Shown one piece after another: positions 11,843 to 25,640 of a stretch of 64,000 bases of DNA. Source of the DNA: Rhodovulum marinum (GTDB taxonomy: Bacteria; Pseudomonadota; Alphaproteobacteria; Rhodobacterales; Rhodobacteraceae); NCBI RefSeq assembly GCF_004343075.1, contig NZ_SLXP01000011.1, positions 1-64,000 of the forward strand, in the 5' to 3' direction. How positions within the stretch are numbered: position 1 is the stretch's first letter; each line of letters opens with the position of its first letter. The notes beneath the pieces were generated by a model. The model had not been told where the DNA came from. It searched no databases and was given only the letters and a program-made list of their open reading frames with translations. Position numbers and translations under genes: made by a program.

Positions 11843-12311
11843 TATCGGGGACCGAACGGCCTCGGAACAGAACAGACACCTCGCAGGTATTTTGCAGACG
11901 GTGCGCAGTCACTCGCAATTCGCCTCGATTGTATCAGACTGCGCTGAAACGGGCCTGAGCTTGCGGGAAGCCGAGTGCGCCACACCGCAGCCAGCCGAAA
12001 CCGAACCACATGCCGCACCCCCACCCCTTGGTCGGCATGGATCCACCGACCGGACCTGAAACGTTCGGCAAGACTTCGCCGCCGATCCGGAAAGTTCATG
12101 CCACCAGATCGTGAGTGTCGTTGTCTTGAGACGGGCAACCTGTAGGTTCGGTCGCGCCAACCGCAGGCTCCAGGGCTTCCCATGACATGATGCCGGCGTC
12201 GCCCCCACACCGGGTGCCTTGGCCGGGATGTGACAGGGGGCGCCTCGATCCGTCCGTGGTTTGCACCGACGAAAAAAGAATGAAACGGCGTCACGCGCCG
12301 GAGAGGAATGG
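11843..12311. other. Intergenic region
   Basis: A 469-bp gap before the beta-helix gene. I see no gene with a plausible start and codon bias and no clear terminator hairpin. It probably carries the promoter of the beta-helix gene. Confidence 0.45.
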
Positions 12312-15300
12312 GTGAGGCGCTCGGCCGCGGTTTGGCTGCTGTGCGTGGTTGGAGTGTGCTTTGTCATGGTGACTCCCATCCGTTGCGTGGCCGGCCAGGA
12401 GCACAGCATGCAGAACGCCCTCTCGAATATTCGCGCCGATCGCACGAGAACGGAAACCGACACCACCCTCTCCACGCCTCCCCCCCGGTCCGACTGGGAC
12501 ATCGTCATTCTGGACCCCGGCGAAACCGAACCCCCGGCAACCGGAACGGCCGGACGTGACAGCGAAACCGCGACCCGGCGCGACCCCAACCCGGGCCGCG
12601 CCCCTGAAACAGACGACGACCGCGCCGAAGACGAAACTCCCGATCCGGCGGATCCCGGCGACAGCGGGGAAACGGGTGACGGCGAAGAAAACGGCGGGCC
12701 AGGGGACGAAACGGACACGGAAACCGGCGAAGAGGATCCCCAGCCCCCCGACGAGACCGACGGCCAGGACGATGCCGGGCAACCATCCGATCCGGCCGGT
12801 CCGGTCGTCACCCTGTCGCCGGGCACGACACTGTCGCTGGCGGGCGGGCGCGTCACGACGCTCCTGCCCGAGCAGGCCGACGAGATCGCTGCGGTGGAAA
12901 TCACCGACCTGCCCGAACATGGCAACGCGACGGTGAACCCCGACAACACCATCGCGCTGGTGCTGTCGGGCAGCGATTACAGCGGGCCGCTGTCGCTGGA
13001 CTACACGATCACCTACACCGATGGCACGGTCGATGCCCGCACCGCCAGCTTCGACGTCGCCGCCCCGACCCAGGAGGCCGGATGGGGCACGGGCACGCAT
13101 TACATGCTGGCAGAGGATGCCAATGGCGACATCGTCGTCGAGCATGGCGACAATCACCGGAAGGTCTATGTCTCGGGCAGCGAGACCGCGCTGAGCAAGG
13201 CGGACATTGCCGCGCGGGAAGGACTGTCGGAAGGCGAGATCACCGCGAAATGGCTGGTCGCCCACCCCGAATACGGCGGATCCGAGGCGATGGCCCTGGC
13301 CGTCGACGCAGGCATGGAGCTCTGGATCGGCAAGGGCGGTCTGACCGGGCTGACCCTGAACAACACGTCACCGGCCCCGTCGTCCCACTGGCTCATGTTC
13401 GAGAAGGGCTACACATACGAGGATCTCGGCGGTGTCTTCGCCTGGGGCGCCAGGGGCGAGTCGGAATTGCACCCGCTTCACGTGACATCCTGGGGCACAG
13501 GCGACCGTCCGGTGATCGATTCAGCGTTCGGCATCGCCCCCCAATGGGCCACGTCAAACATCGTGGTCAGCGACCTGGAACTGGTCCAAGGGTTCGGCAA
13601 TCTGACGGCCGACAACGTCATCCTGACCAATATGCACTTCTCCGGAGGGGTAAGTTTTCAAGGGTTCAGTCGTCCTCTCAAGGGCTTCACCCTGCACAAT
13701 TCCGAAATCGTCGATGTCGTTCCGCCAGAACCGGAGGGCGGCACCTGGAGTGGCACCGCTGCCGGGCTTTTCGTACGCGAGACTTCCGGCATCCTGATCG
13801 AGGATACGCTCTTCCACCACAATGGCTGGGGAGACGACTACCGGCTGGACGGCTCCACCGAAGGCGGCATGCCGCCCAACAAGTTCAGCCATAACATCTA
13901 TCTTCAGAACACGACGACCGACGTCACCTTCCGCGACAACATCTCGGCCCAGGCCGCCTCTGTCGGCGCCCAGTTCCGGGGCGGTGGCCATATCGAGAAC
14001 AATGCCTTCATCGACAACAACGTGGCCTTCAACGTTCTGGGTGGGGTATACAGAAATGACGGTCCGATCGGGAATTACAGCTTCGTTGCCGACAATGTCG
14101 TCACATCCGCGGGCTACAAGCTTTCCTCGAATATTGGCGCGGTGAATTGGGGCATACAAAACACGGGGTACGACACCACCGTCTTCAACAATATCATCGC
14201 TCACCTGGCTGACCCCAACAATCCGGCGGAAATCGCCTGGAAGACCGGTACAAGCAACCCGCTGACAACCACGACGGATCTCTTCCACGACGATACCATC
14301 ATCTACAACTGGCTCGGGACTGATCCGAACTCAACCCGCACCCATGGCAACGAGCGCTACGATAGCGATCTCGATACCGACATCGCCGATCAGACAACGA
14401 TCCAGAACTTTGCGGCGCAGTTCCTTGGTCGCCCCGCCGGTGCGCATCCCGATGACGAACAGCTGGACAATTATTACAAAAGCGGCTGGCTCACCGAGCT
14501 GATGGCTTATGCAAGAGAGAACTGGACCGACGGCGCCCCCACGGCGCAAGATATTGTCGCCTATTTCCAGAACAGCTTCGGCGTTGCACCGAATGGCACT
14601 GAGACGACCCACCGCTTTGTGCCGAACACGCTTGCCGACGGCATCCGCTGGGACACCCGGATCAACTGGACGACCCAGGCCGTCCCCGACGATGGCGATA
14701 ATGTCGATCTGGGCGGCAACTGGGTGTATTACGGCGCGCGGACCACGACGATCACGGATCTCGACCTGGGATCAGGCGGGCGGCTGCATGTCACCAGCGG
14801 CAAGCTGACGGTCGAGGGCGCGCTCGAGACCGGCGCGGATGGCGGGCTGATCACAGTGGAGGGCCCGGGCCAGTTCTGGTTCGACGGCTATGGCGACGCG
14901 GATCTGATGATCTTCGATGTCACTGGCGGCCGGCTTGCCAATACCGGTGAGGTAACGGGGACGACCGCGGTCGCGATCTCGGGCGGGCAGGCGATTCTCG
15001 CCACCGACGGGGCGCGCTATGATCTAACCGGCGGCAGCGAGCTGCGCATCGAAGGCGCGGACGCCAGCGTCGGCTTCGACGGGAACGGCACCGGCACCGC
15101 CCTGCTGCGCATGCATGACGGGTCGGTTCTGACCTTCGATGCCGACGCGGAGGGCTTCGCGACGTTGACGGAGTTCCGCAGCGGCCGCTGGGATCAGCAG
15201 GGCAGCCCGGTGGACTCGCATGTCATCCTCGACGGGACGTTGAAACTCGATCTTTCCGATCTTCCTGGCGGGGCCGACAGCCTCAGCCTGATCGAGGTGG

Positions 15301-15515
15301 ACATGCTGTCCGGAACCTTCGACGCCATCGACATCCATGGTCTGGGTGGCGACAGGAACGCGACGATCATCCTCGACCATGCGGCCGATGAGCTGCGGCT
15401 GGAACTGAGTGCCGGCAGCGGCCAGACCGCGTTCCTCGAAATCGGCATCGACCTCGCCGATCCCGCGCTGCATGTCCTTTCGGGCGATCTGCCGGATCTG
15501 TTCGATCTGGGCTGA
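12312..15515 (+). CDS. Large secreted right-handed parallel beta-helix protein
   Basis: About 1067 residues from GTG 12312, chosen because 'GGAGAGGAA' precedes it and the next residues form a signal peptide (RR, then 'AAVWLLCVVGVCFVMV'). Residues about 60-160 are an extreme Asp/Glu/Pro/Thr-rich linker. Next come a domain with 'LDYTITYTDGTVDA' (cadherin/Ig-like, about 180-255) and a long beta-helix region (about 390-620) with Asn-ladder-like phrases such as 'IENNAFIDNNVAFNVLGG' and 'GILIEDTLFHHNGWG'. The C-terminal third ('GSGGRLHVTSGKLTVEGAL') resembles autotransporter or haemagglutinin passenger repeats. It has no RTX repeats and no PEP-CTERM tail. It may bind or cleave polysaccharide, since many such helices are lyases or epimerases, but no catalytic motif can be claimed. 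Confidence 0.75.
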   Translation: MRRSAAVWLLCVVGVCFVMVTPIRCVAGQEHSMQNALSNIRADRTRTETDTTLSTPPPRSDWDIVILDPGETEPPATGTAGRDSETATRRDPNPGRAPETDDDRAEDETPDPADPGDSGETGDGEENGGPGDETDTETGEEDPQPPDETDGQDDAGQPSDPAGPVVTLSPGTTLSLAGGRVTTLLPEQADEIAAVEITDLPEHGNATVNPDNTIALVLSGSDYSGPLSLDYTITYTDGTVDARTASFDVAAPTQEAGWGTGTHYMLAEDANGDIVVEHGDNHRKVYVSGSETALSKADIAAREGLSEGEITAKWLVAHPEYGGSEAMALAVDAGMELWIGKGGLTGLTLNNTSPAPSSHWLMFEKGYTYEDLGGVFAWGARGESELHPLHVTSWGTGDRPVIDSAFGIAPQWATSNIVVSDLELVQGFGNLTADNVILTNMHFSGGVSFQGFSRPLKGFTLHNSEIVDVVPPEPEGGTWSGTAAGLFVRETSGILIEDTLFHHNGWGDDYRLDGSTEGGMPPNKFSHNIYLQNTTTDVTFRDNISAQAASVGAQFRGGGHIENNAFIDNNVAFNVLGGVYRNDGPIGNYSFVADNVVTSAGYKLSSNIGAVNWGIQNTGYDTTVFNNIIAHLADPNNPAEIAWKTGTSNPLTTTTDLFHDDTIIYNWLGTDPNSTRTHGNERYDSDLDTDIADQTTIQNFAAQFLGRPAGAHPDDEQLDNYYKSGWLTELMAYARENWTDGAPTAQDIVAYFQNSFGVAPNGTETTHRFVPNTLADGIRWDTRINWTTQAVPDDGDNVDLGGNWVYYGARTTTITDLDLGSGGRLHVTSGKLTVEGALETGADGGLITVEGPGQFWFDGYGDADLMIFDVTGGRLANTGEVTGTTAVAISGGQAILATDGARYDLTGGSELRIEGADASVGFDGNGTGTALLRMHDGSVLTFDADAEGFATLTEFRSGRWDQQGSPVDSHVILDGTLKLDLSDLPGGADSLSLIEVDMLSGTFDAIDIHGLGGDRNATIILDHAADELRLELSAGSGQTAFLEIGIDLADPALHVLSGDLPDLFDLG

Positions 15516-15517
15516 GC

Positions 15518-15543
15518 TCCGGGTTTCGCATGCGAAACCCGGA
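15518..15543. repeat. parS-like palindrome, copy 1 (26-bp perfect dyad)
   Basis: The core TTTCGCATGCGAAA is extended outward to a perfect 26-bp palindrome, the longest of the six copies. It lies 2 bp after the beta-helix stop codon, in the gap before the convergent HAD-UbiA gene, where it could also form a terminator-like stem. Confidence 0.85.
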
Positions 15544-15635
15544 CCGGCCGGGCGCGGCGGAAAGCGCCGCGCCCGCAAGAAACGATCGCCGGGAATGCCA
15601 GCCCTGGCGCCCCCTGCCGTGCCGCCTTGGCCCGG

Positions 15636-17087
15636 CTACAGGAACGTCGCGGCGAGGCCCGCGCCGAACATCAGGATGACGCAAATCTGACTGATCCGAT
15701 CTTTCGCCGCATAGACGACGGGATCGTCATGCATGCCCCCTCGATGGGTGACCATTACCATCCGTGTGATCCAGTAGAGCAGAACCAGGCAGATCCCCCA
15801 GAGCGCCGGCGGATAGCTGTAAAGCTCCCCCACCGCAGGCGAATTGACGTAAAGCGCCATGACCAGCACCGAGACATAACCCGCCGAGACCGCGAATTGC
15901 GAGATCAGCGGCAGATCGTCCGCGTGATAGCCCCGCCCCGTGGCTGCGAGCTGGCCGCGCCGGACGCCGTCGACAAGCTCGGCCTGACGCTTCACCGCCG
16001 CCAATGCAAAGAAGAAGAACACCGAAAACGCCAGCAGCCAGACCGACAGCGCGATCCCCGTCGCGACCCCGCCAGCGACGATGCGGATCGTGTAAAGACA
16101 GGCGAGCGTCACGATATCGATGATCGTGCGGCGCTTGAGATTCAGCGAATAGGCGGTGGTGGCGACGAAATAGACCGACATGACCCCGAGGAACGCCCAG
16201 CCGAGGCTTGCCGAGACCAGCACGCCGCCGGCCAGCAGCCCCGCGGCCATCCAGGAACCATGGGCGATCGGAACGTTGCCGCTGGCGAACGGCCGACGGG
16301 ATTTGCGCGGATGGGCGCGGTCCGCCGACAGGTCCAGCAGATCGTTCAGGACGTAGACGGCGCTGGCCACCAGGCTGAAGGCGACAAAGGCCATAAGGCT
16401 TAGCCCCAGCGTCGCGAGGTCATAGCGATGCCCGGCAATCATGGGCAGGAAGACGAGGATGTTCTTCAGCCACTGATGCGGGCGCAGCGCCTTCAGATAA
16501 GGGCCGACCGCCGCCCGGGCCGGTCCCAGATGCTCAACCTCGCGCCCGATCGCCGCGACCCGGCGGCGCAGGGCTGCGGGCGCGTTCACGGTGATCGCCT
16601 TCGTCGCCCGTTCCCAGACCGGCAGGTCGGCGGGCGCATCACCCATATAGGCAAAGCCCCCGTCCCCGAAGCGGGCGGTCAAGAAGTCGGCCTTGACCGC
16701 GCCCTTCAGATTGCGTGCCCCGTCCGAGCCATGGACCTCGTCGAACACGCCCAGATGGTCGGCGATCCGGGTCGCGAGGCCTTCGTCGCTGGCGGTCACC
16801 AGCGCCGTGCGCCCGCCCGCCGCCCGCCAGTCCCGCACATAGGTCAGCACGTCCGCATCATAGGGCAGCGTCGCGATGTCCACCACGCTCGCCGCGGCCA
16901 GATGGCGCTTCAGCGCCGCCCGCCCGGCCCGCAGCGTCAGCGCCGCCCGGACGGGGCTGCGCCAGTCGGCGGCAAGCGCGCTCCAGAAGGTCTCGAACAG
17001 CAGGTCCGACCGCAACAGCGTCCCGTCCAGATCGACGATCAGAACGGGACAGCGGGTCGGGCGATCTTCGAGCAAGGCTGTCGTCAT
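15636..17087 (-). CDS. HAD phosphatase-UbiA prenyltransferase fusion
   Basis: A 483-residue two-domain protein. The N-terminus carries the HAD motif I 'VDLDGTLLRSD' (about residues 18-28), motif II 'LVTASDE' and a late 'YMGDAPADLPVW'. The C-terminal half, from about residue 195, is a UbiA prenyltransferase with 'LRPHQWLKNILVFLPM', 'YVLNDLLDLSADRAHPRKSR' (the aspartate-rich Mg/prenyl-PP site) and about eight membrane helices. The relative DPPR synthase moves phosphoribose onto decaprenyl phosphate. The HAD domain could dephosphorylate the product, but this coupling is inference. The gene lies just downstream of parB on the same strand, with a parS-like site on each side. Confidence 0.85.
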   Translation of the reverse strand: MTTALLEDRPTRCPVLIVDLDGTLLRSDLLFETFWSALAADWRSPVRAALTLRAGRAALKRHLAAASVVDIATLPYDADVLTYVRDWRAAGGRTALVTASDEGLATRIADHLGVFDEVHGSDGARNLKGAVKADFLTARFGDGGFAYMGDAPADLPVWERATKAITVNAPAALRRRVAAIGREVEHLGPARAAVGPYLKALRPHQWLKNILVFLPMIAGHRYDLATLGLSLMAFVAFSLVASAVYVLNDLLDLSADRAHPRKSRRPFASGNVPIAHGSWMAAGLLAGGVLVSASLGWAFLGVMSVYFVATTAYSLNLKRRTIIDIVTLACLYTIRIVAGGVATGIALSVWLLAFSVFFFFALAAVKRQAELVDGVRRGQLAATGRGYHADDLPLISQFAVSAGYVSVLVMALYVNSPAVGELYSYPPALWGICLVLLYWITRMVMVTHRGGMHDDPVVYAAKDRISQICVILMFGAGLAATFL

Positions 17088-17149
17088 GAAATCTCTGCTT
17101 GGCTGGACACTGGGCGGGCGGCATCTTCAGGATCATGTTCTACGCCCGG

Positions 17150-17167
17150 GGTTTCGCATGCGAAACC
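17150..17167. repeat. parS-like palindrome, copy 2
   Basis: An 18-bp perfect dyad with the core TTTCGCATGCGAAA flanked by GG/CC. It lies in the gap between the start of the HAD-UbiA gene and the stop codon of parB. Confidence 0.85.
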
Positions 17168-17206
17168 GAACATTGCATGAAGATGTCCCAGCCCCCCTGC
17201 CTCGCC

Positions 17207-18196
17207 CTACCCCCGTGCGACGAGCCAGCGGCGAAGGTCCTCGGCAAGGCCCGCGTCGACCCCTTTGCCCGACAGCGTCAGCCGGCCGCGCACCACTTGC
17301 AGGGCGACGCCAGGGGCAATCTCTTCGGGGAGGGCGGCGGATTTGCCCGCCCGGCCCTGCCCTTTCACGGCACGTTCGAGCACAGCGCGCTCGGCCGCGG
17401 CATCCCTTGAGGCGGCATCTCGCAGGGCCGCGGCCAGCCGGTCGGCGAACCCCTCTTGCGCCTGCACTGCGCCGGCCAGCGCCAGGCCCAGATGCTCGGG
17501 GATCGCGGCGGGAAAGCGCAAGCTGTCGTCGAACGCCTCGACCAGATGGGTAAAGGCCAGGATCTTGGACCGCTTCGGCGCGGGCGCAGCAGCGAACAGC
17601 CCGGCCACCGCCGCGGCCTTGTCGGGATAGACCCCCTGCCCCGCCGCCTGCACCGCGATCCGCGCGCGTTCGTAGAAGCTGAGGCCCGCGCGGATCTCGT
17701 TCTCCTCGACCATCGCGCGATAGGCCTCCGGCGCGCCCTCGGGGCTGCGGACCAGCGCCAGGATCCCGGCGAAACGATCCTCGCCGGTCTCGGCATGCAG
17801 ACGCCGGAGCGCGGTCAGCCGCCGCCAGCCCGAAATCAGCCCGTAGCGACCGTGGCCGAGGTCCACTACCTCCACCGGCATCTGCTGGCCACGGTCGCGC
17901 AGGCTGGCCATCAGCGTGCCAAGCTCCGCCTCGTCCATCGTGATGCGGTCACGCACCAGGTGCGCCTCCTCCAGCGCCGCAAGCGGCAGCCGCATCACGA
18001 AGCGGCCTTCGCTGCGCGCGCTTTGCAGTTCCTGCGTGACCTCATCGAGCGCGGCGCGGGTGGCGGCATCGCGCGAGACCTCGGCGATCGGGGCAGGGGG
18101 CCGGCGATAGGTCTGGGCCACCCCCATCGCCTTGGTTTCGGGGGCGCCGCCGAGGATCTCGGGCGCGGCGGGGCTGAGACGCTTGCGTTTAGCCAT
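17207..18196 (-). CDS. parB: Plasmid partition protein ParB
   Basis: A 329-residue ParB/RepB protein. The N-terminal box ('MRLPLAALEEAHLVRDRITM') leads to the ParB/Srx domain with 'LISGWRRLTALRRLHAE' (GxxRxxA-type CTP-binding element, about residues 130-146). 'MVEENEIRAGLSFYERARIA' (about 175-194) is followed by a helix-turn-helix region and a basic C-terminal part. ParB binds the centromere parS, spreads, and is moved by ParA. It is 98 bp downstream of parA on the same strand, and palindromic sites lie on both sides of it. ATG 18196 is the only start that keeps the basic N-terminus. Confidence 0.92.
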   Translation of the reverse strand: MAKRKRLSPAAPEILGGAPETKAMGVAQTYRRPPAPIAEVSRDAATRAALDEVTQELQSARSEGRFVMRLPLAALEEAHLVRDRITMDEAELGTLMASLRDRGQQMPVEVVDLGHGRYGLISGWRRLTALRRLHAETGEDRFAGILALVRSPEGAPEAYRAMVEENEIRAGLSFYERARIAVQAAGQGVYPDKAAAVAGLFAAAPAPKRSKILAFTHLVEAFDDSLRFPAAIPEHLGLALAGAVQAQEGFADRLAAALRDAASRDAAAERAVLERAVKGQGRAGKSAALPEEIAPGVALQVVRGRLTLSGKGVDAGLAEDLRRWLVARG

Positions 18197-18223
18197 GGGT
18201 TTAGACCCTCTTCCTGCTCGATC

Positions 18224-18254
18224 CGCCCCGTTTCGGCCTGTCCGGGGCGTTTTT
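18224..18254 (+). terminator. Intrinsic terminator on the plus strand between parA and parB
   Basis: Stem CGCCCCG (18224-18230) / CGGGGCG (18243-18249) is followed directly by TTTTT (18250-18254). It points in the direction opposite to parA-parB, so it would end a transcript running antisense to parB. On the minus strand it would be a hairpin preceded, not followed, by U residues. Confidence 0.55.
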
Positions 18255-18278
18255 CAACAGACTCTGTTCCACCACGAT

Positions 18279-18292
18279 TTTCGCATGCGAAA
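18279..18292. repeat. parS-like palindrome, copy 3
   Basis: A 14-bp perfect dyad TTTCGCATGCGAAA in the parA-parB spacer, 2 bp beyond the parA stop codon. This is the usual place for a centromere site in partition operons. Confidence 0.85.
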
Positions 18293-18294
18293 CC

Positions 18295-19680
18295 TCACTC
18301 GGCGGCCAGCCCCTCGCGGGTGCGTTCCTCACGCCTCCATATCCCGAGAAGCAGCCGCTTAAAGGCGGCGTAGGTCTCGTCGAAGGTAGCGCGGCCGCGG
18401 GCATAGGTATCACGGTTGAAGTTGCGGTAATCGGCCTCGTATATCCCGTTCACGCTTTCGCCGGCCTGACCGATGAGTGCGGTGAAATCCTGCCGGTAGG
18501 GCGACAGGGTGCGGCCCATATAGGCCTGCATTAGCGCGGCCATCTCGGCCTGCTGGGCAGCGTCATAGCGGGTGACGACGGCCTGCACCGCGTCCCATTC
18601 GAAGGCCAGTTCCTCGCGCCCCAGTGCGCGGGCGGCGATGTTCTCGCCCTCCTCGATCGAGGAAAAGGTGGCGTGCAGCATGTCGAAGAAGCGCCCCGTC
18701 GAGTCGAACTCGACGAAACTGGCGCCGACGGGCACCAGCAGGATGTCGGCCGCCGCCAGCCCGTTGATCGTGAGATAGCCAAGCGCCGGGGGGGTGTCGA
18801 GGAACACCAGGTCATAGCGGTCGAGCACGCCACCCGCGGTCAGCGCCTCGGAGAGCGCATCCCACAGCTTCCAGGACCGCGCGTTCATCCGCCAGACGGG
18901 GATCTGGAATTCCGACCAGTAAAGGTTCAGCTGCGCGCCGATCAGGTCGATATTGGGCCAGTGGGTCGGCTTGATGACATCCGCGGGCGACACCTTGAGC
19001 GCCTCGCTCAGCGTTTCGTCGAGCGGCAGGGGCGCCTCGCCCCGGTCCAGCCGGCGCTGGTTCTCGGCTCTCAGATGCTCGCCGTAATGGCGGGCGAGCA
19101 GGGGGAAGACCGTTTCCCATTCATCGGCCACCTTGCCGCCGAAGATCGAGGTCATGGACCCTTGACTGTCGAGATCCACCACCAGCACCCGGTAGCCGTC
19201 CAGCGCCGCCGACATCGCCAGATGGGCGCAGGTCGAGGTCTTGCCGACGCCCCCCTTGAAGTTCGCCACCGCCACGACCTTGGCTGGCAGCCCCTCGGGG
19301 CGGTAGGGCAGGTACTCCTTGGACTTCGAGCCCGACGCCCCGAAATGGGCCCTGAGCCGCAGCACCTCGTCGAGGCTGAACCACTTGGCCCCGCCCTCGG
19401 TCTCGGACACGCCCTGGGGCAGGTCGGGATTCTCGCGCAGCACGCGGCGGAAATGGGCGGGGGCCACGGGGATGAGATACCTGGTGATCTCCCAGGTCGA
19501 GAACGGCCGCAGCCGTCGTTCGCCGGTCTCGTCGAGACCCCGGCCCGCCAGGTCCGCCCGCCCACGCGCGCAGGCCTCGGCAATCGCCCGGAGCCCGTCC
19601 GTTCCGGTGGGCGGTGGCAGCTCCGTCATCGCCTTGTCGGGCGAGATGTTGAAATAGGGAGGCAGTTCGTTCGCCTGCAT
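18295..19680 (-). CDS. parA: Plasmid partition ATPase ParA (type Ia, with N-terminal DNA-binding region)
   Basis: 461 residues from ATG 19680 ('MQANELPPYFNISPDKAM'). The frame continues to 19773 but has no family similarity there. The N-terminal third carries a helix-turn-helix-like region ('STWEITRYLIPVAPAHFRR'), as in autoregulated type Ia ParA. The deviant Walker A motif is 'NFKGGVGKTSTCAHLAM' (about residue 142), then 'VLVVDLDSQGSMTSIFGG' and 'LVFLDTPPALGYLTINGL'. ParA forms ATP-dependent gradients on the nucleoid that pull ParB-parS complexes. It is divergent from repA across a 433-bp origin region, where its own operator probably lies. Confidence 0.93.
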   Translation of the reverse strand: MQANELPPYFNISPDKAMTELPPPTGTDGLRAIAEACARGRADLAGRGLDETGERRLRPFSTWEITRYLIPVAPAHFRRVLRENPDLPQGVSETEGGAKWFSLDEVLRLRAHFGASGSKSKEYLPYRPEGLPAKVVAVANFKGGVGKTSTCAHLAMSAALDGYRVLVVDLDSQGSMTSIFGGKVADEWETVFPLLARHYGEHLRAENQRRLDRGEAPLPLDETLSEALKVSPADVIKPTHWPNIDLIGAQLNLYWSEFQIPVWRMNARSWKLWDALSEALTAGGVLDRYDLVFLDTPPALGYLTINGLAAADILLVPVGASFVEFDSTGRFFDMLHATFSSIEEGENIAARALGREELAFEWDAVQAVVTRYDAAQQAEMAALMQAYMGRTLSPYRQDFTALIGQAGESVNGIYEADYRNFNRDTYARGRATFDETYAAFKRLLLGIWRREERTREGLAAE

Positions 19681-19927
19681 GCTCGACCCCCGATGTATCG
19701 CGTTTTGCTCAATGTGCCACAGATCCCGATACACGCAAAGGGAAACGTATCCCCCTCTTCTTTTTCTCAGCAATTGGGGGACGATTCGGACCGCCCGGTT
19801 CCTGGGGGCGGGGCATGCACCTGGCTTGGGGCTTGTTATTTTCCGTTATTTCATAGTTACGGAGGGCTTCCGGCAACAAAAAATCCTTGAGAATCAGGAG
19901 GGCAGGGCGGTTTCGGCAGGGTCGGTC

Positions 19928-19993
19928 CGACTCCGAAACCCCGATAAAGCGACTCCGATCCCACGCTTTCCCGACTCCGAAACGCCGATCCCG
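19928..19993 (+). repeat. Three 22-bp-period iterons
   Basis: CGACTCCGA recurs at 19928, 19950 and 19972, exactly 22 bp (about two helical turns) apart. The first and third units agree over 'CGACTCCGAAAC-CCGAT' with one difference. The spacing places all copies on one helix face, as in Rep-binding iterons. Confidence 0.75.
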
Positions 19994-20014
19994 ATCGGAC
20001 AAGGCTGGACGGAG

Positions 20015-20023
20015 TTATCCACA
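20015..20023 (+). promoter_or_regulatory. DnaA box
   Basis: TTATCCACA, the perfect high-affinity DnaA-binding sequence, lies 21 bp after the iteron array and 90 bp before repA. Confidence 0.75.
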
Positions 20024-20049
20024 GGCCCTAGGGTGGGGTGTCAATGAAA

Positions 20050-20080
20050 CCCCGAAACCGGGGCGGACCCGGAAACCGGG
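20050..20080 (+). promoter_or_regulatory. Tandem hairpins in the repA leader
   Basis: Two small stem-loops occur in a row: CCCCG-AAAC-CGGGG (20050-20063) and CCCGG-AAA-CCGGG (20068-20080). Both end about 30 bp before the repA start, so they could affect repA mRNA translation or folding of the origin. Confidence 0.5.
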
Positions 20081-20113
20081 CCGAACGGGCAGGCAGAACG
20101 AGGCAGGACGCGC

Positions 20114-21112
20114 ATGACCGGGGCAGTCGGCTCCCCCCTCCAGCAGGATTTTTTCGTCTGCGATTTCTTCGCTGCCGTGCCCAAGCACGACCTCGCCTCG
20201 ATGGAACATCCGCTGTTCTCGCTTTCCACCCGGCCCGACCGGCGGATCCTGGAATATGATCACAACGGGGTGCAGGTCACCGTGACGCCCTCGGTCAAGG
20301 GCCGGGCCACGATCTTCGATGCCGATATCCTGATCTTCTGCATCTCCCAGCTGATGGCGGCGATCAATGCCGGGCGCCCGACCGCGCGGACGCTGACGCT
20401 GACCGCCCATGACCTGCTGATCGCGACGGGGCGCGAGACGAGCGGAGACGGCTACAAGCGGCTGCGCGACGCGTTCGAGCGGCTGGCGGGCACGCGGATC
20501 ACCACCAACATCGTCACCGGCGAGCAGGAGACCACCACCGGCTTCGGCCTGATCGAAAGCTGGCAGATCGTGCGCAAGACCCGCGGCGGGCGGATGGTCA
20601 GTGTCGCGGTGACGCTGTCGGAATGGCTCTACCGTGCGGTGCTGGCGAAATCGGTCCTCACGCTTTCCCGCGATTATTTTCGCATGCGAAAACCGCTGGA
20701 GCGGCGGATCTACGAACTTGCCCGCAAGCATTGCGGCCGCCAGCCGGCCTGGCGGGTCTCGGTCGAGACTCTGCTCAAGAAATCCGGCTCAGCAAGCCCG
20801 CGCCGGGTGTTCCGCGCGATGCTGCGCGAGATCATCCGCGCGGGCAACCTGCCCGATTATGACCTGGCCGAGGAAGAGGGCGACATCATCCGGGTGACGC
20901 CCAAGGCGGCGGTGATCGAGCCGGGGCAGGGCAGGGGGCCGCAGCTTTCGCCGGACGCGCTCGACGAGGCGCGCCGGCTGCTGCCCGGGGCGGATGTCTA
21001 CGCGCTCGAGGCCGAGTGGCGGGCGATGTGGGCGGCCACGGGCAAGAAGGTGCTCCGTAGCCCCGACAAGGCGTTCCTGGGCTGGGTGAAGCGGCAGGCC
21101 GGGCGGGCGTGA
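20114..21112 (+). CDS. repA: Replication initiator RepA (alphaproteobacterial RPA family)
   Basis: A 332-residue protein matching the alphaproteobacterial replication initiator family (PF10134): 'MEHPLFSLSTRPDRRILEY', 'DADILIFCISQLMAAIN', 'YKRLRDAFERLAGTRI', 'LTLSRDYFRMRKPLERRIYE' and 'LARKHCG'. A winged-helix region spans roughly residues 185-260. RepA binds the iterons and opens the origin. Start ATG 20114 has 'AGGCAGGA' upstream. Codons 189-193 (FRMRK) are written by an embedded copy of the parS-like palindrome. RepA-type initiators with divergent parAB are one of the recognised roseobacter plasmid replication types. Confidence 0.93.
   Translation: MTGAVGSPLQQDFFVCDFFAAVPKHDLASMEHPLFSLSTRPDRRILEYDHNGVQVTVTPSVKGRATIFDADILIFCISQLMAAINAGRPTARTLTLTAHDLLIATGRETSGDGYKRLRDAFERLAGTRITTNIVTGEQETTTGFGLIESWQIVRKTRGGRMVSVAVTLSEWLYRAVLAKSVLTLSRDYFRMRKPLERRIYELARKHCGRQPAWRVSVETLLKKSGSASPRRVFRAMLREIIRAGNLPDYDLAEEEGDIIRVTPKAAVIEPGQGRGPQLSPDALDEARRLLPGADVYALEAEWRAMWAATGKKVLRSPDKAFLGWVKRQAGRA
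20677..20692. repeat. parS-like palindrome, copy 4 (inside repA)
   Basis: A 16-bp perfect dyad with the core TTTCGCATGCGAAA and one extra T/A pair, inside repA. It is read as codons TTT CGC ATG CGA AAA (F189-K193) in a conserved part of the protein. Confidence 0.85.
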
Positions 21113-21218
21113 CACACCGTTTCCCGGCAGGGCGGGCAGAACCAGGCCAAGCCTGTTGCAATTCGCCCGGGGCTGGCCGATACCGGCGGGGAGTTTTCCG
21201 GCCCGGATATTTGAGCCG

Positions 21219-21776
21219 ATGCAGATTGAACAGACCGCGCTGCCCGGCGTCCTGATCCTGACGCCCGCCCGTCACGGGGACGCCCGGGGCTTCTTCTCCG
21301 AAAGCTGGAACCGGGCGCGGCTAGCCGAGGCCGGCATCGCGATCGATTTCGTGCAGGACAACCACTCGTTTTCGCATGCGAAAGGCACGCTGAGGGGGAT
21401 GCATTTTCAGGCCCCGCCCCATGCCCAGGCCAAGCTGGTGCGCTGCGGACGGGGGGCGCTCTATGATGTGGTCGTCGATATCCGCAAGGGCGCGCCCAGC
21501 TATGGGGCCTGGGTCGGGACGGAACTCAGCTTCGACAACGGTCGGCAGATGCTCATCCCCGAGGGGTTCCTGCACGGCTTCGTCACGCTGACCGAGGAGA
21601 CCGAGATTCTTTACAAATGCTCGGACTACTACACCCCCGACTGCGACGGCGCGGTGCGCTGGGACAGTTGCGGCATCGACTGGCCACTGGCGGGTGATCC
21701 CGTCCTTTCGGCGAAGGATCAGGCCGCTCCCCCCTTTGCCGCGTTCGACAGCCCCTTTGTCTGGGAGATGCCATGA
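21219..21776 (+). CDS. rmlC: dTDP-4-dehydrorhamnose 3,5-epimerase
   Basis: 185 residues from ATG 21219 ('[16 protein letters not shown]'). RmlC signatures are '[13 protein letters not shown]', '[19 protein letters not shown]' with the catalytic-type His, '[14 protein letters not shown]', and '[12 protein letters not shown]'. It epimerises C3 and C5 of dTDP-4-keto-6-deoxyglucose. Its stop overlaps the rmlB start by 4 bp, and it is 106 bp downstream of repA on the same strand. Residues 51-55 (FSHAK) are written by an embedded parS-like palindrome in a segment that varies among RmlC proteins. Length and motifs indicate an active enzyme. Confidence 0.93.
21370..21383. repeat. parS-like palindrome, copy 5 (inside rmlC)
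   Basis: A 14-bp perfect TTTCGCATGCGAAA inside rmlC. It is read in a different codon phase from the repA copy, as TCG CAT GCG AAA (S52-K55). Confidence 0.85.
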
Positions 21777-22813
21777 AACTGCTTGTGACCGGGGGGGCGG
21801 GCTTCATCGGCTCGGCCGTGGTGCGGCGCGCCATCGCCGAAGGCCATGAGGTCGTGAACCTCGACGCGCTGACCTATGCCGCCTGCCTCGAGAACGTGGC
21901 GAGCGTCGCCGCTCTCCCGGGCTATGCCTTTGTCGAGGGTGACATCCGCGACGCGGATCTGCTGGCCCGCGTCTTCGCCGAACACGCCCCCGATGCGGTG
22001 ATGCATCTGGCGGCCGAATCCCATGTCGACCGCTCGATCGACGGGCCCGGCGCCTTCATTGAGACCAACGTGATGGGCACCTATGCCCTGTTACAGGCCG
22101 CCCGTGGCCACTGGGAAAGCCGGGGGCGGCCCGCCGGCTTCCGCTTTCACCACATCTCGACCGACGAGGTGTTCGGCAGTCTTGGCCCGACCGGCAAGTT
22201 CACCGAGACCACGCCCTACGACCCGCGCTCTCCCTATTCCGCCTCGAAAGCGGCCTCGGACCACCTGGTGCGCGCCTGGCACGAGACCTATGGGTTACCG
22301 GTGGTGCTGACCAATTGCTCGAACAATTACGGCCCCTTCCACTTCCCCGAGAAACTGGTGCCCGTGGTGATCCTGAACGCGATCCACGGCCGGCCGATCC
22401 CGGTCTACGGGGCGGGCGAGAATGTGCGTGACTGGCTCTATGTCGAGGACCACGCCGAGGCGCTGCTGCTGGTGCTGGAACAGGGCCGGGTGGGACGCTC
22501 CTACAATATCGGCGGCGAGAACGAGGCGAAGAACATCGACCTCGTACGCATGATCTGCGCGATCCTCGACGAGATGCGGCCCGAGGGCGCGCCGCACGAT
22601 CGGCTGATCACCTTCGTCACGGACCGCCCCGGCCACGACCTGCGCTACGCGATCGACCCCACCCGCATCCGCGAGGAACTGGGCTGGCGGCCCTCTGTGA
22701 CGCTGGGGGAGGGGCTGCGCCGGACCGTGCGCTGGTATCTCGACAACGAGACCTGGTGGCGCCCGCTGCTGAACCGGGACGGTGTGGGGCAGCGGCTGGG
22801 GACGGGGGCGTGA
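21773..22813 (+). CDS. rmlB: dTDP-glucose 4,6-dehydratase
   Basis: A 346-residue extended SDR enzyme with the N-terminal NAD-binding motif '[12 protein letters not shown]', '[20 protein letters not shown]', the catalytic 'STDEVFG' and the YxxxK pair in '[16 protein letters not shown]'. '[15 protein letters not shown]' and '[14 protein letters not shown]' are RmlB-specific. It makes dTDP-4-keto-6-deoxyglucose, the branch point for L-rhamnose (RmlC/D) and for 4-amino sugars (WecE at 7-8 kb). It overlaps rmlC and rmlD by 4 bp each, which shows a tightly coupled operon. Confidence 0.95.
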
Positions 22814-23667
22814 GCCTGCTGGTCTTCGGGCGGACGGGCCAGGTGGCGCGCGAACTGGCGCTGCTTGCGCCCGAGGCGACCGTCCTCGGCCGGGACATGG
22901 CCGACCTCGCCGAGCCCGAGGCCTGCGCCGCGGCCATCGCCGCCCATGCGCCTGACGCGGTCATCAACGCCGCCGCCTGGACCGCCGTGGATCGGGCTGA
23001 AGAGGAAGAGGCGCTTGCCACGCGCATCAACGGCGCGGCGCCGGGCGCGATGGCGCGGGCCTGTGCGGCGCGCGGCATTCCCTTCGTCCATATCTCCACC
23101 GATTATGTCTTCGACGGCTCGGGCACGCGGCCCTGGCGCCCCGACGATCCGCCCGCGCCGCTCTCGGCCTATGGCCGAAGCAAGTTGGCCGGCGAAGAGG
23201 CGGTGCGCGCGGCAGGCGGCGCGCACGCGATCCTGCGCACTTCCTGGGTGTTCTCGGCCCATGGGGCGAATTTCGTGAAAACCATGCTGCGACTGGGGGC
23301 AGAGCGCGACAGCCTGCGGATCGTGGCCGATCAGGTCGGAGGCCCCACGCCCGCCGCTGCGATCGCCGCCGCCTGCCTCGCTCTGGCCGAGGCGCTGGCA
23401 AAAGATCCTGACAAGGCCGGAACCTACCATTTCGCGGGCGCCCCCGATGTCAGCTGGGCGGATTTCGCATGCGAAATCTTTGCCCGGGCCGGGCTGCGCG
23501 TCGCGGTCGAGGAGATCGCCACGGCCGGGTACCCGACGCCTGCACGCCGCCCGCTCAATTCCCGGCTCGATTGCGCCGCGCTGGAGGCTCGATTCGGCAT
23601 TCCCCGCCCAGCCTGGCAGGCCGGGCTCGCACAGGTTCTGGCCCAGCTCGCTGCAGAACGACCATGA
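22810..23667 (+). CDS. rmlD: dTDP-4-dehydrorhamnose reductase
   Basis: 285 residues from GTG 22810 (GTGA overlap with the rmlB stop; '[19 protein letters not shown]'). RmlD motifs are 'FGRTGQVA' (nucleotide binding), '[17 protein letters not shown]', '[10 protein letters not shown]', and the YxxxK pair in '[15 protein letters not shown]'. It reduces the RmlC product to dTDP-L-rhamnose with NADPH. Codons 218-223 (DFACEI) coincide with an 18-bp parS-like palindrome. An ATG-started extension upstream to 22756 would overlap rmlB by 58 bp and lacks similarity. Confidence 0.93.
23461..23478. repeat. parS-like palindrome, copy 6 (inside rmlD)
   Basis: An 18-bp perfect dyad with the core TTTCGCATGCGAAA inside rmlD. 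It is read in a third codon phase, as GAT TTC GCA TGC GAA ATC (D218-I223). Confidence 0.85.
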
Positions 23668-24758: not shown

Positions 24759-25640
24759 ATGAGCACGCGCAAGGGCATCATCCTGGCCGGCGGGTCGGGC
24801 ACGCGGCTTTATCCGATCACCATGGGCGTCTCGAAGCAGCTTTTGCCGCTCTATGACAAGCCGATGATCTACTATCCGCTCAGCGTGCTGATGCTAGCCG
24901 GCATCCGCGAGATCGCGGTGATCACCACGCCCGAGGATCAGGCGCAGTTCCAGCGCCTGATGGGGGACGGGGCGAAATGGGGGCTGTCCTTCACCTGGAT
25001 CACGCAGGCCTCGCCCGACGGTCTGGCCCAGGCCTATCTGCTGGCCGAAGAGTTTTTGGCCGGTGCGCCGTCTGCCATGGTGCTGGGCGACAACGTCTTC
25101 TTTGGCCATGGCTTGCCCGAAATCCTCGCTCGCGCCGATGCAAGGGGGCAGGGGGGCACCGTCTTCGGCTATCAGGTCGCCGATCCGGAACGCTATGGTG
25201 TGGTGACGTTCGATGCGACCGGCACCCGGGCCGTCGAGATCGTGGAAAAGCCCGAACGCCCGGCCTCGGATTATGCGGTGACGGGGCTCTATTTTTTGGA
25301 TGGCACGGCGCCCGAACGCGCCAAGTCCATCCGGCCCTCGGCGCGCGGTGAGCTGGAGATTACCTCGCTTCTGGAAACATACCTATTCGAGGGCAGCCTG
25401 ACGGTCGAGAAGATGGGCCGGGGCTATGCCTGGCTCGACACCGGGACGCATGCGAGCCTGCTGGACGCGGGCAATTTCGTGCGCACGTTGCAGGACCGGC
25501 AGGGGCTGCAGATCGGCGCGCCTGAAGAGATCGCCTACCGGCAGGGCTGGATCGACCGCGAGGCGCTCGAGGCCCATGCGAAATTCTTCGGCAAGACCCG
25601 TTACGGGACCTTCCTTGCGCGGCTGGCGGACAGCGCCTGA
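24759..25640 (+). CDS. rmlA: Glucose-1-phosphate thymidylyltransferase
   Basis: A 293-residue RmlA. The N-terminal nucleotidyltransferase motif '[20 protein letters not shown]' lies at residues about 7-26, followed by '[14 protein letters not shown]', '[10 protein letters not shown]', '[18 protein letters not shown]' and '[16 protein letters not shown]'. It joins glucose-1-phosphate with dTTP to give dTDP-glucose, the first step of the rhamnose and Fuc4N routes. It is the last gene of the rmlC-B-D-sulfotransferase-A operon, 34 bp after the sulfotransferase stop. All family residues I can check are present. Confidence 0.95.

Follow-up and report, generated by a model that had tools for sequence, protein, structure and literature searches.

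A palindromic word as the probable parS of a RepA-type rhamnose plasmid in Rhodovulum marinum

Six copies of one palindrome at a partition and replication locus

The window analysed in this study is a 64,000-nucleotide stretch of Rhodovulum marinum DNA (contig NZ_SLXP01000011.1 of assembly GCF_004343075.1, positions 1 to 64,000). The 14-mer TTTCGCATGCGAAA occurs there as six exact copies within 8 kb (cores at 15524, 17152, 18279, 20678, 21370 and 23463), in and around the partition genes parA and parB, the replication gene repA and the rhamnose (rml) genes of a plasmid, and the data suggest that these palindromes are parS, the sites at which the plasmid's ParB protein would load. The parAB genes lie on the minus strand and are divergent from repA, which is followed by rmlC, rmlB and rmlD and, about 1.1 kb further on, by rmlA. 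With a PF10134 initiator, parAB and rml genes on one contig, the replicon is a RepA-type rhamnose plasmid. The features of the locus are as follows.

12261-15515: open reading frame of 1084 amino acids before site 1, no Pfam match
15518-15543: site 1, 26-bp palindrome with its 14-bp core at 15524-15537, directly after the stop of the preceding frame
15636-17087, minus strand: UbiA prenyltransferase with a HAD domain (Pfam), flanked by site 1 (15524) and site 2 (17152)
17150-17167: site 2, core 17152-17165, directly downstream of parB, between parB and the UbiA gene
17207-18196, minus strand: parB, recognised by invariant motifs, profile and predicted fold
18279-18292: site 3, in the parA-parB gap
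18295-19680, minus strand: parA, partition ATPase (Pfam AAA_31 and CbiA on the longer frame 18295-19773)
20114-21112, plus strand: repA, replication initiator protein A (PF10134)
20677-20692: site 4, inside repA, codons 189-193 (F-R-M-R-K), phase 1
21219-21776, plus strand: rmlC, dTDP-4-dehydrorhamnose 3,5-epimerase
21370-21383: site 5, inside rmlC (F-S-H-A-K), phase 2
21773-22813, plus strand: rmlB by position and family (GDP_Man_Dehyd/Epimerase), without a site
22810-23667, plus strand: rmlD, dTDP-4-dehydrorhamnose reductase
23461-23478: site 6, inside rmlD (D-F-A-C-E-I), phase 3
24759-25640, plus strand: rmlA homologue (tblastn, 83.6% identity to a gene annotated rfbA in the related locus L036), without a site

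The match of parA to NCBIfam TIGR03453 falls below the cut-off. A relative of the 12261-15515 frame, annotated as a right-handed parallel beta-helix protein, adjoins parB in Jannaschia sp. CCS1 (L039). Between parA and repA, at 19920-20010, GACTCCGAAACnCCGAT-type repeats were seen by eye and may be origin iterons.

Including symmetric flanks, the palindromes measure 26, 18, 14, 16, 14 and 18 bp (sites 1 to 6), and the longer coordinates given in an earlier sequence-only reading of the window are the palindromes plus these flanks. That reading had reported six perfect copies in 8 kb and none elsewhere in the window. This was confirmed, and no exact copy beyond the same six was found in the whole genome (3,945,381 bases, 38 contigs). 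At up to two mismatches the window holds no extra copy either, while shuffled sequence gave 0.19 matches on average with a maximum of 2. A control word, made by reading the 14-mer backward, is absent from the genome and from all 390 genomes of the order that were searched, 45 of which (own genome counted) contain the 14-mer itself. Chance as the source of the six copies was rejected on the basis of the shuffles, the whole-genome count and the 390-genome control.

The three copies inside genes are read in three different codon phases, as the sequence-only reading had stated and as the coordinates bear out. The repA copy starts at offset 564 from the gene start at 20114 (phase 1, TTT CGC ATG CGA AA), the rmlC copy at offset 151 from 21219 (phase 2, TT TCG CAT GCG AAA) and the rmlD copy at offset 653 from 22810 (phase 3, T TTC GCA TGC GAA A). 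When 16 window open reading frames picked by the analyst (7593 codons) were resampled synonymously in 300 runs, coding words with a purine-pyrimidine (RY) centre numbered 0.07 on average and 2 at most, compared to the 3 observed.

The ParB protein and the word on related plasmids

The ParB protein has no Pfam match at 1e-3. However, a profile of its alignment found sulfiredoxin as the best match (2.4e-8), followed by Noc (4.6e-7) and ParB structures, and a structure model from 22 sequences (predicted local distance difference test 83.8, predicted template modelling score 0.60) matched Noc, ParB and KorB with a Foldseek probability of 1.00, though with low whole-length template modelling scores of 0.22-0.38. 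These profile and predicted fold matches place the protein in the ParB family of cytidine triphosphate (CTP) clamps. G123, R125 and R126 (G-x-RR) and an EENE-x-R stretch are invariant in the alignment; both stretches resemble the CTP-binding motifs of ParB proteins, and sequence and model together suggest that this ParB uses CTP. A ParA-type ATPase gene (PF13614, PF01656) adjoins parB, and a cluster of inverted repeats that are presumably cognate lies near parAB, as in type I ParABS systems.

Two other assignments were considered and rejected. Two exact copies of TGTTTCACGTGAAACA, the canonical 16-bp chromosomal parS, are present on contig C8 of the same genome and none, at up to one mismatch, on the plasmid contig, whereas the plasmid word is found solely on the plasmid contig; this rules out the window word as the canonical chromosomal site. 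A repABC replicon was also rejected, as parAB is divergent from a PF10134 initiator and the word is unlike the repABC words in the available parts of PMC5613091. Against TIGR03454 the ParB scores 54 bits, the cut-off being 201.5.

The word was then compared across 93 loci, consisting of 12 PLSDB stretches, the best 80 of 539 genome loci around RepA relatives, and the window. Most of these loci hold 27 kb or less and some are redundant: L034 and L097 have identical aligned RepA, L112-L114 are one contig with identical RepA, and L081/L083 and L133/L135 are near copies. Among the 14-bp RY-centred inverted repeats in the 93 loci, 180 have the TTTCGC arm, and the next arm accounts for 7. Matches to ParA, ParB and RepA (tblastn) occur together in 84 of the loci, and 83 of those 84 have at least one site. 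The place beside parB is family-wide, with 119 of the 180 sites being par-proximal: 87 are found up to 600 nt downstream of parB, where relatives most often carry the word and where site 2 lies in the window, and 32 lie in the parA-parB gap. The other sites are in repA (10), rmlD (7), parB (5) or rmlC (1), within 1200 nt downstream of repA (16) or elsewhere (22). Their centres are GC in 73 cases, AT in 58, AC in 31 and GT in 18. The copies inside the parB coding sequence are GC-centred, and with five loci (L041:10206, L093:699, L094:7205, L101:7058 and L116:7455) they are another recurrent coding position.

The sequence-only reading had described the locus as an unusually spread centromere. 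Its copy number is indeed unusual, as six is the maximum among the 93 loci, but its span is not, as relatives L039, L055 and L064 also have sites 7-9 kb apart.

These positions also bear on whether the sites belong to ParB at all, rather than being operators for the N-terminal domain of ParA or RepA iterons. In type Ia and repABC systems, relatives of ParA act as operator-binding proteins, and repA itself carries a copy. However, the common positions are downstream of parB and in the parA-parB gap, and no copy lies between parA and repA (19681-20113), the expected place of promoters and origin. Iterons and ParA operators were rejected for this last reason, and such a role is scarcely probable.

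At the level of whole genomes, the 16-mer form GTTTCGCRYGCGAAAC was counted by hand in 149 genomes, own included. It was found in 36 of the 45 genomes with a close ParB (E<=1e-50) compared to 11 of the 104 others (Fisher p=1.3e-16). This co-occurrence and the 83 of 84 loci support the earlier proposal that the copies, with parAB in their midst, are centromere sites, and the sequence comparisons suggest that it is very probably the parS of the adjacent parAB.

One complication is that some genomes hold 8-22 copies, many of them on chromosome-sized contigs. Of the 22 copies of the 16-mer in G177, 19 are on contigs 2.62 and 0.55 Mb long and the other 3 lie next to a ParB relative on a separate contig, and in G161, G177 and G254 between 9 and 19 copies lie off the contig with the best ParB match. 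In G254 the large-contig copies and the parB-side copies sit in one kind of palindromic intergenic repeat. The 16-mer is also present in genomes that lack a close ParB, such as G082 (13 copies) and G140 (12 copies), and G043 has 5 copies and no ParB match at E<=0.001; therefore the word also lives outside this plasmid family. These data raise the alternative that the word forms the core of a repeat scattered between genes, or is the target of an unrelated chromosomal regulator, and owes its place near parB to history rather than to binding by ParB. This is very unlikely given the presence of the word in 83 of 84 plasmid loci and its association with ParB over genomes. In addition, the core is constant across the genera examined although its flanks vary between them, the copies of the window genome are confined to the plasmid contig, and an intergenic repeat would leave the copies in codons unexplained. 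Either the plasmid ParB can load on such chromosomes, or parS has its core in common with a family of repeats.

The dispersed copies of GTTTCGCRYGCGAAAC are in L191-L205 (G177), L211-L220 (G254), L206-L210 (G043) and L221-L225 (G201). Those on large contigs are mostly between open reading frames, often near a stop codon, and in G254 and G201 their flanks are common to the copies beside parB.

The copies inside repA and the rml genes

A second alternative is that only the intergenic copies are parS and that the copies in genes arose as by-products of conserved protein motifs (YFRLRKP in RepA, DFAREI in RmlD and HSxS....GT in RmlC) and chance codons. The three coding copies of the window compared to 0.07 expected speak against this, as does the codon bias in repA. 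F-R-M-R-K is encoded by 12 of 95 RepA genes, all 12 of which spell it TTT CGC ATG CGA AAR, and the other 83 aligned genes have no RY-centred word at this place. Elsewhere in 11 FRMRK repA genes, CGA accounts for 18 of 400 Arg codons and TTT for 29 of 121 Phe codons, and the product of codon frequencies for the exact spelling is about 0.005 per gene. Third bases agree 58% on average between carriers. Only codon choice given FRMRK was used here, as comparing invariant runs among carriers that were chosen for the word is circular.

The carriers occupy several places on the RepA tree, which was built with the trait columns left out and omits L026 (RepA end only) and L027 (aligns in two frames). 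They need four changes, of which at least three are forced by well supported branches, and placing them in one clade is rejected (approximately unbiased test, p-AU 5e-6). Once the window and L119 are removed, a single clade for the 9 carriers left is rejected only weakly (p-AU 0.042), and thus the case for three or more independent gains depends mainly on the separation of the window, L119 and the other carriers. The carrier lineages are the window, a Jannaschia/Roseicyclus/Roseibacterium group, Paracoccus and one Pseudoruegeria, and short-tract exchange by recombination may have occurred among them.

All 12 repA words are AT-centred, including those of Paracoccus plasmids, where AC or GT centres prevail at the other sites; among RY centres, AT gives Met where the family has Leu. 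An AT-centred site elsewhere is present in 9 of 10 carriers compared to 16 of 73 non-carriers (p=5e-5, with no correction for phylogeny). In L109, at 9076, the RepA codons are TTT CGC CTG CGA AAA, one base off the word, and the plasmid's other site is AT-centred; this could be an intermediate or a decayed copy.

The word is present in 7 of 21 plasmid rmlD genes (window included) and in 5 of 52 further rmlD genes of the order. The latter come from matches in 61 genomes, of which 53 full-length genes were used (30 from the loci and 23 fetched), one being the window's; a long partial match in G024, contig C26, was left out. By hand, 11 of the 52 were assigned to contigs with a RepA of at least 66% identity and 41 to contigs without one, although three of the latter contigs (G002, G005 and G037) have weak RepA matches and small contigs may end before RepA. 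With the window excluded, the word is found in 9 of 31 rmlD genes on contigs with a close RepA compared to 2 of 41 on others (p=0.006). This suggests that the DFAREI motif predisposes rmlD to the word and that RepA plasmids hold it more often, an enrichment that speaks against the by-product explanation. In 7 of 9 cases (the first 6 checkable loci and G056), the rmlD word and the other sites of its plasmid have the same centre. In rmlC, by comparison, the word was found in 1 of 23 genes compared, which is the window's, and this single copy may be a by-product.

It had been claimed earlier that selection acts here on DNA rather than protein. For repA, the uniform spelling in carriers that do not form one clade makes such selection well supported. 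For rmlD it is moderately supported, and for rmlC it would be supported by one plasmid only.

The sequence-only reading also proposed that the centromere could explain the linkage of rml genes to RepA plasmids. Under a strong form of this idea, coding copies make repA and the rml genes part of the centromere, so that their loss costs stability and keeps rml linked. In 14 of the 93 loci, the start of rmlC is no more than 400 nt downstream of repA. Six of these have a site in an rml gene, as the idea would require, but 8 have none, and L036 keeps its rml genes near repA without such sites. Furthermore, 13 of the 14 loci hold parB and all 13 have a site beside it. Plasmid fixation of this kind is highly unlikely, and the 8 linked plasmids led to the rejection of the centromere as a general cause of rml linkage.

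Several results weigh against reading all six copies as ParB loading sites, and some of them favor by-products in the coding sequences. All five sites of the nearest relative, L036 (RepA 87%, ParB 72%), lie outside repA, rmlC and rmlD. L036 is thus a plasmid with a similar ParB and without the coding copies, a case that the sequence-only reading had named as counting against it, though across the family this is not so at the repA position. Of the 119 par-proximal copies, 88 have the outer G-C pair, compared to 1 of 18 copies inside repA, rmlC or rmlD; with the pair mostly absent, the copies in these genes may be weaker sites. The rmlD word also occurs in the 2 of 41 genes away from a close RepA. 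In G003 and G028, of one genus, the rmlD centre is AC and both par sites are AT, and the by-product explanation was therefore rated slightly higher than before. The link between the repA word and an AT centre comes down to 3 independent pairs, with which significance is unreachable. More generally, L117 is the sole one of the 84 loci without a site, 9 of the 45 genomes with a close ParB lack the 16-mer form, and 11 of the 104 other genomes contain it, two of them 12-13 times. Compared to 12 of 12 repA genes using the exact codons, the rmlD enrichment and the excess of coding words, however, by-products are a rather unlikely source of the coding copies.

A candidate partition complex and its relation to known systems

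The model favored here, to which we give a probability of roughly 0.83, is that a type I ParABS system on a RepA-type (PF10134) plasmid of Rhodobacterales has its parS sites in the six palindromes, that ParB clamps load at them and that the coding copies are extra loading sites. The cognate word would be TTTCGC-RY-GCGAAA, in most cases framed by an outer G-C pair. If this ParB behaves like its relatives of solved structure, a dimer would load at each site, close as a CTP clamp and slide. The six loading sites would then assemble a single partition complex spanning about 8 kb, from parAB through repA into the start of the rml operon, and ParA would move this complex. The word, its place beside parB across the family, the codon bias and the several positions of the carriers on the RepA tree are observed; that this ParB binds the sites, that clamps load there and that the coding copies serve any purpose is inferred from these comparisons. 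The copies in genes would be written in synonymous or conservative codons, and repA may be a preferred position because its conserved Y-F-R-L-R-K-P is few changes from the word and an AT centre makes only a mild change from Leu to Met. A tentative and less likely extension is that ParB loaded within repA dampens expression of the gene or brings sister plasmids together at the initiator; the partition complex could then feed back on replication, and the repeated gains could reflect such use rather than drift.

The result gives a testable parS word for widespread RepA plasmids of Rhodobacterales, some of which carry polysaccharide genes, those for rhamnose among them, and the word may help to sort these plasmids into compatibility groups. 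A DNA signal met several times in the same codons of a replication gene also means that synonymous changes can separate DNA function from protein function. The exact 14-mer and a published parS for Rhodobacterales RepA plasmids were not found in the literature searched, with subscription papers on RepA plasmids outside that search. Six further words were searched, and a 12-mer part occurs in two papers, one on Streptomyces and one on a cyanobacterium.

The papers compared below were available in part, and what is said of them refers to those parts. The parS sites of repABC replicons in Rhodobacterales and Rhizobiales are inverted repeats, of 14 nt in PMC5613091, that adjoin the partition genes and frequently occur several times on a replicon. 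In Rhodobacterales they are also found in following open reading frames, typically 0.5-4 kb away and 12 kb away in pAMI4, and their word differs between compatibility groups (PMC9040568, PMC5613091). The plasmid studied here is similar in having several inverted repeats by its partition genes, some of them in open reading frames. However, its RepA (PF10134) is divergent from parAB with no repABC operon, its word is TTTCGCRYGCGAAA rather than the TTAACAG/CTGTTAA or TTCACAG/CTGTGAA of repABC, and one copy lies at a recurrent place in the initiator gene itself. In Pseudomonas aeruginosa, 9 of 10 parS sites are most likely inside coding sequences (PMC4368675). Those sites are intragenic as here but chromosomal, on another replicon type, and the available parts of that paper do not mention repeated use of the same codons in one gene. 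KorB of plasmid RK2, which is among the predicted fold matches of the window's ParB, is a plasmid ParB-family CTP clamp that slides from distal OB sites to promoters up to 1.5 kb away, and it works with KorA for strong repression (PMC11790492).

Rhamnose genes on RepA-I plasmids of roseobacters have already been reported (PMC3910554, PMC4148953, PMC4148994). These plasmids share a RepA replicon, rml genes and polysaccharide genes with the one described here, and no parS word for RepA plasmids is stated in the available parts of those papers. Intragenic and kilobase-spread parS sites are likewise already known from the parts of PMC9040568 and PMC4368675 available to us. What is likely to be new is the probable parS word of this RepA plasmid family and the recurrence of the same codons in repA.

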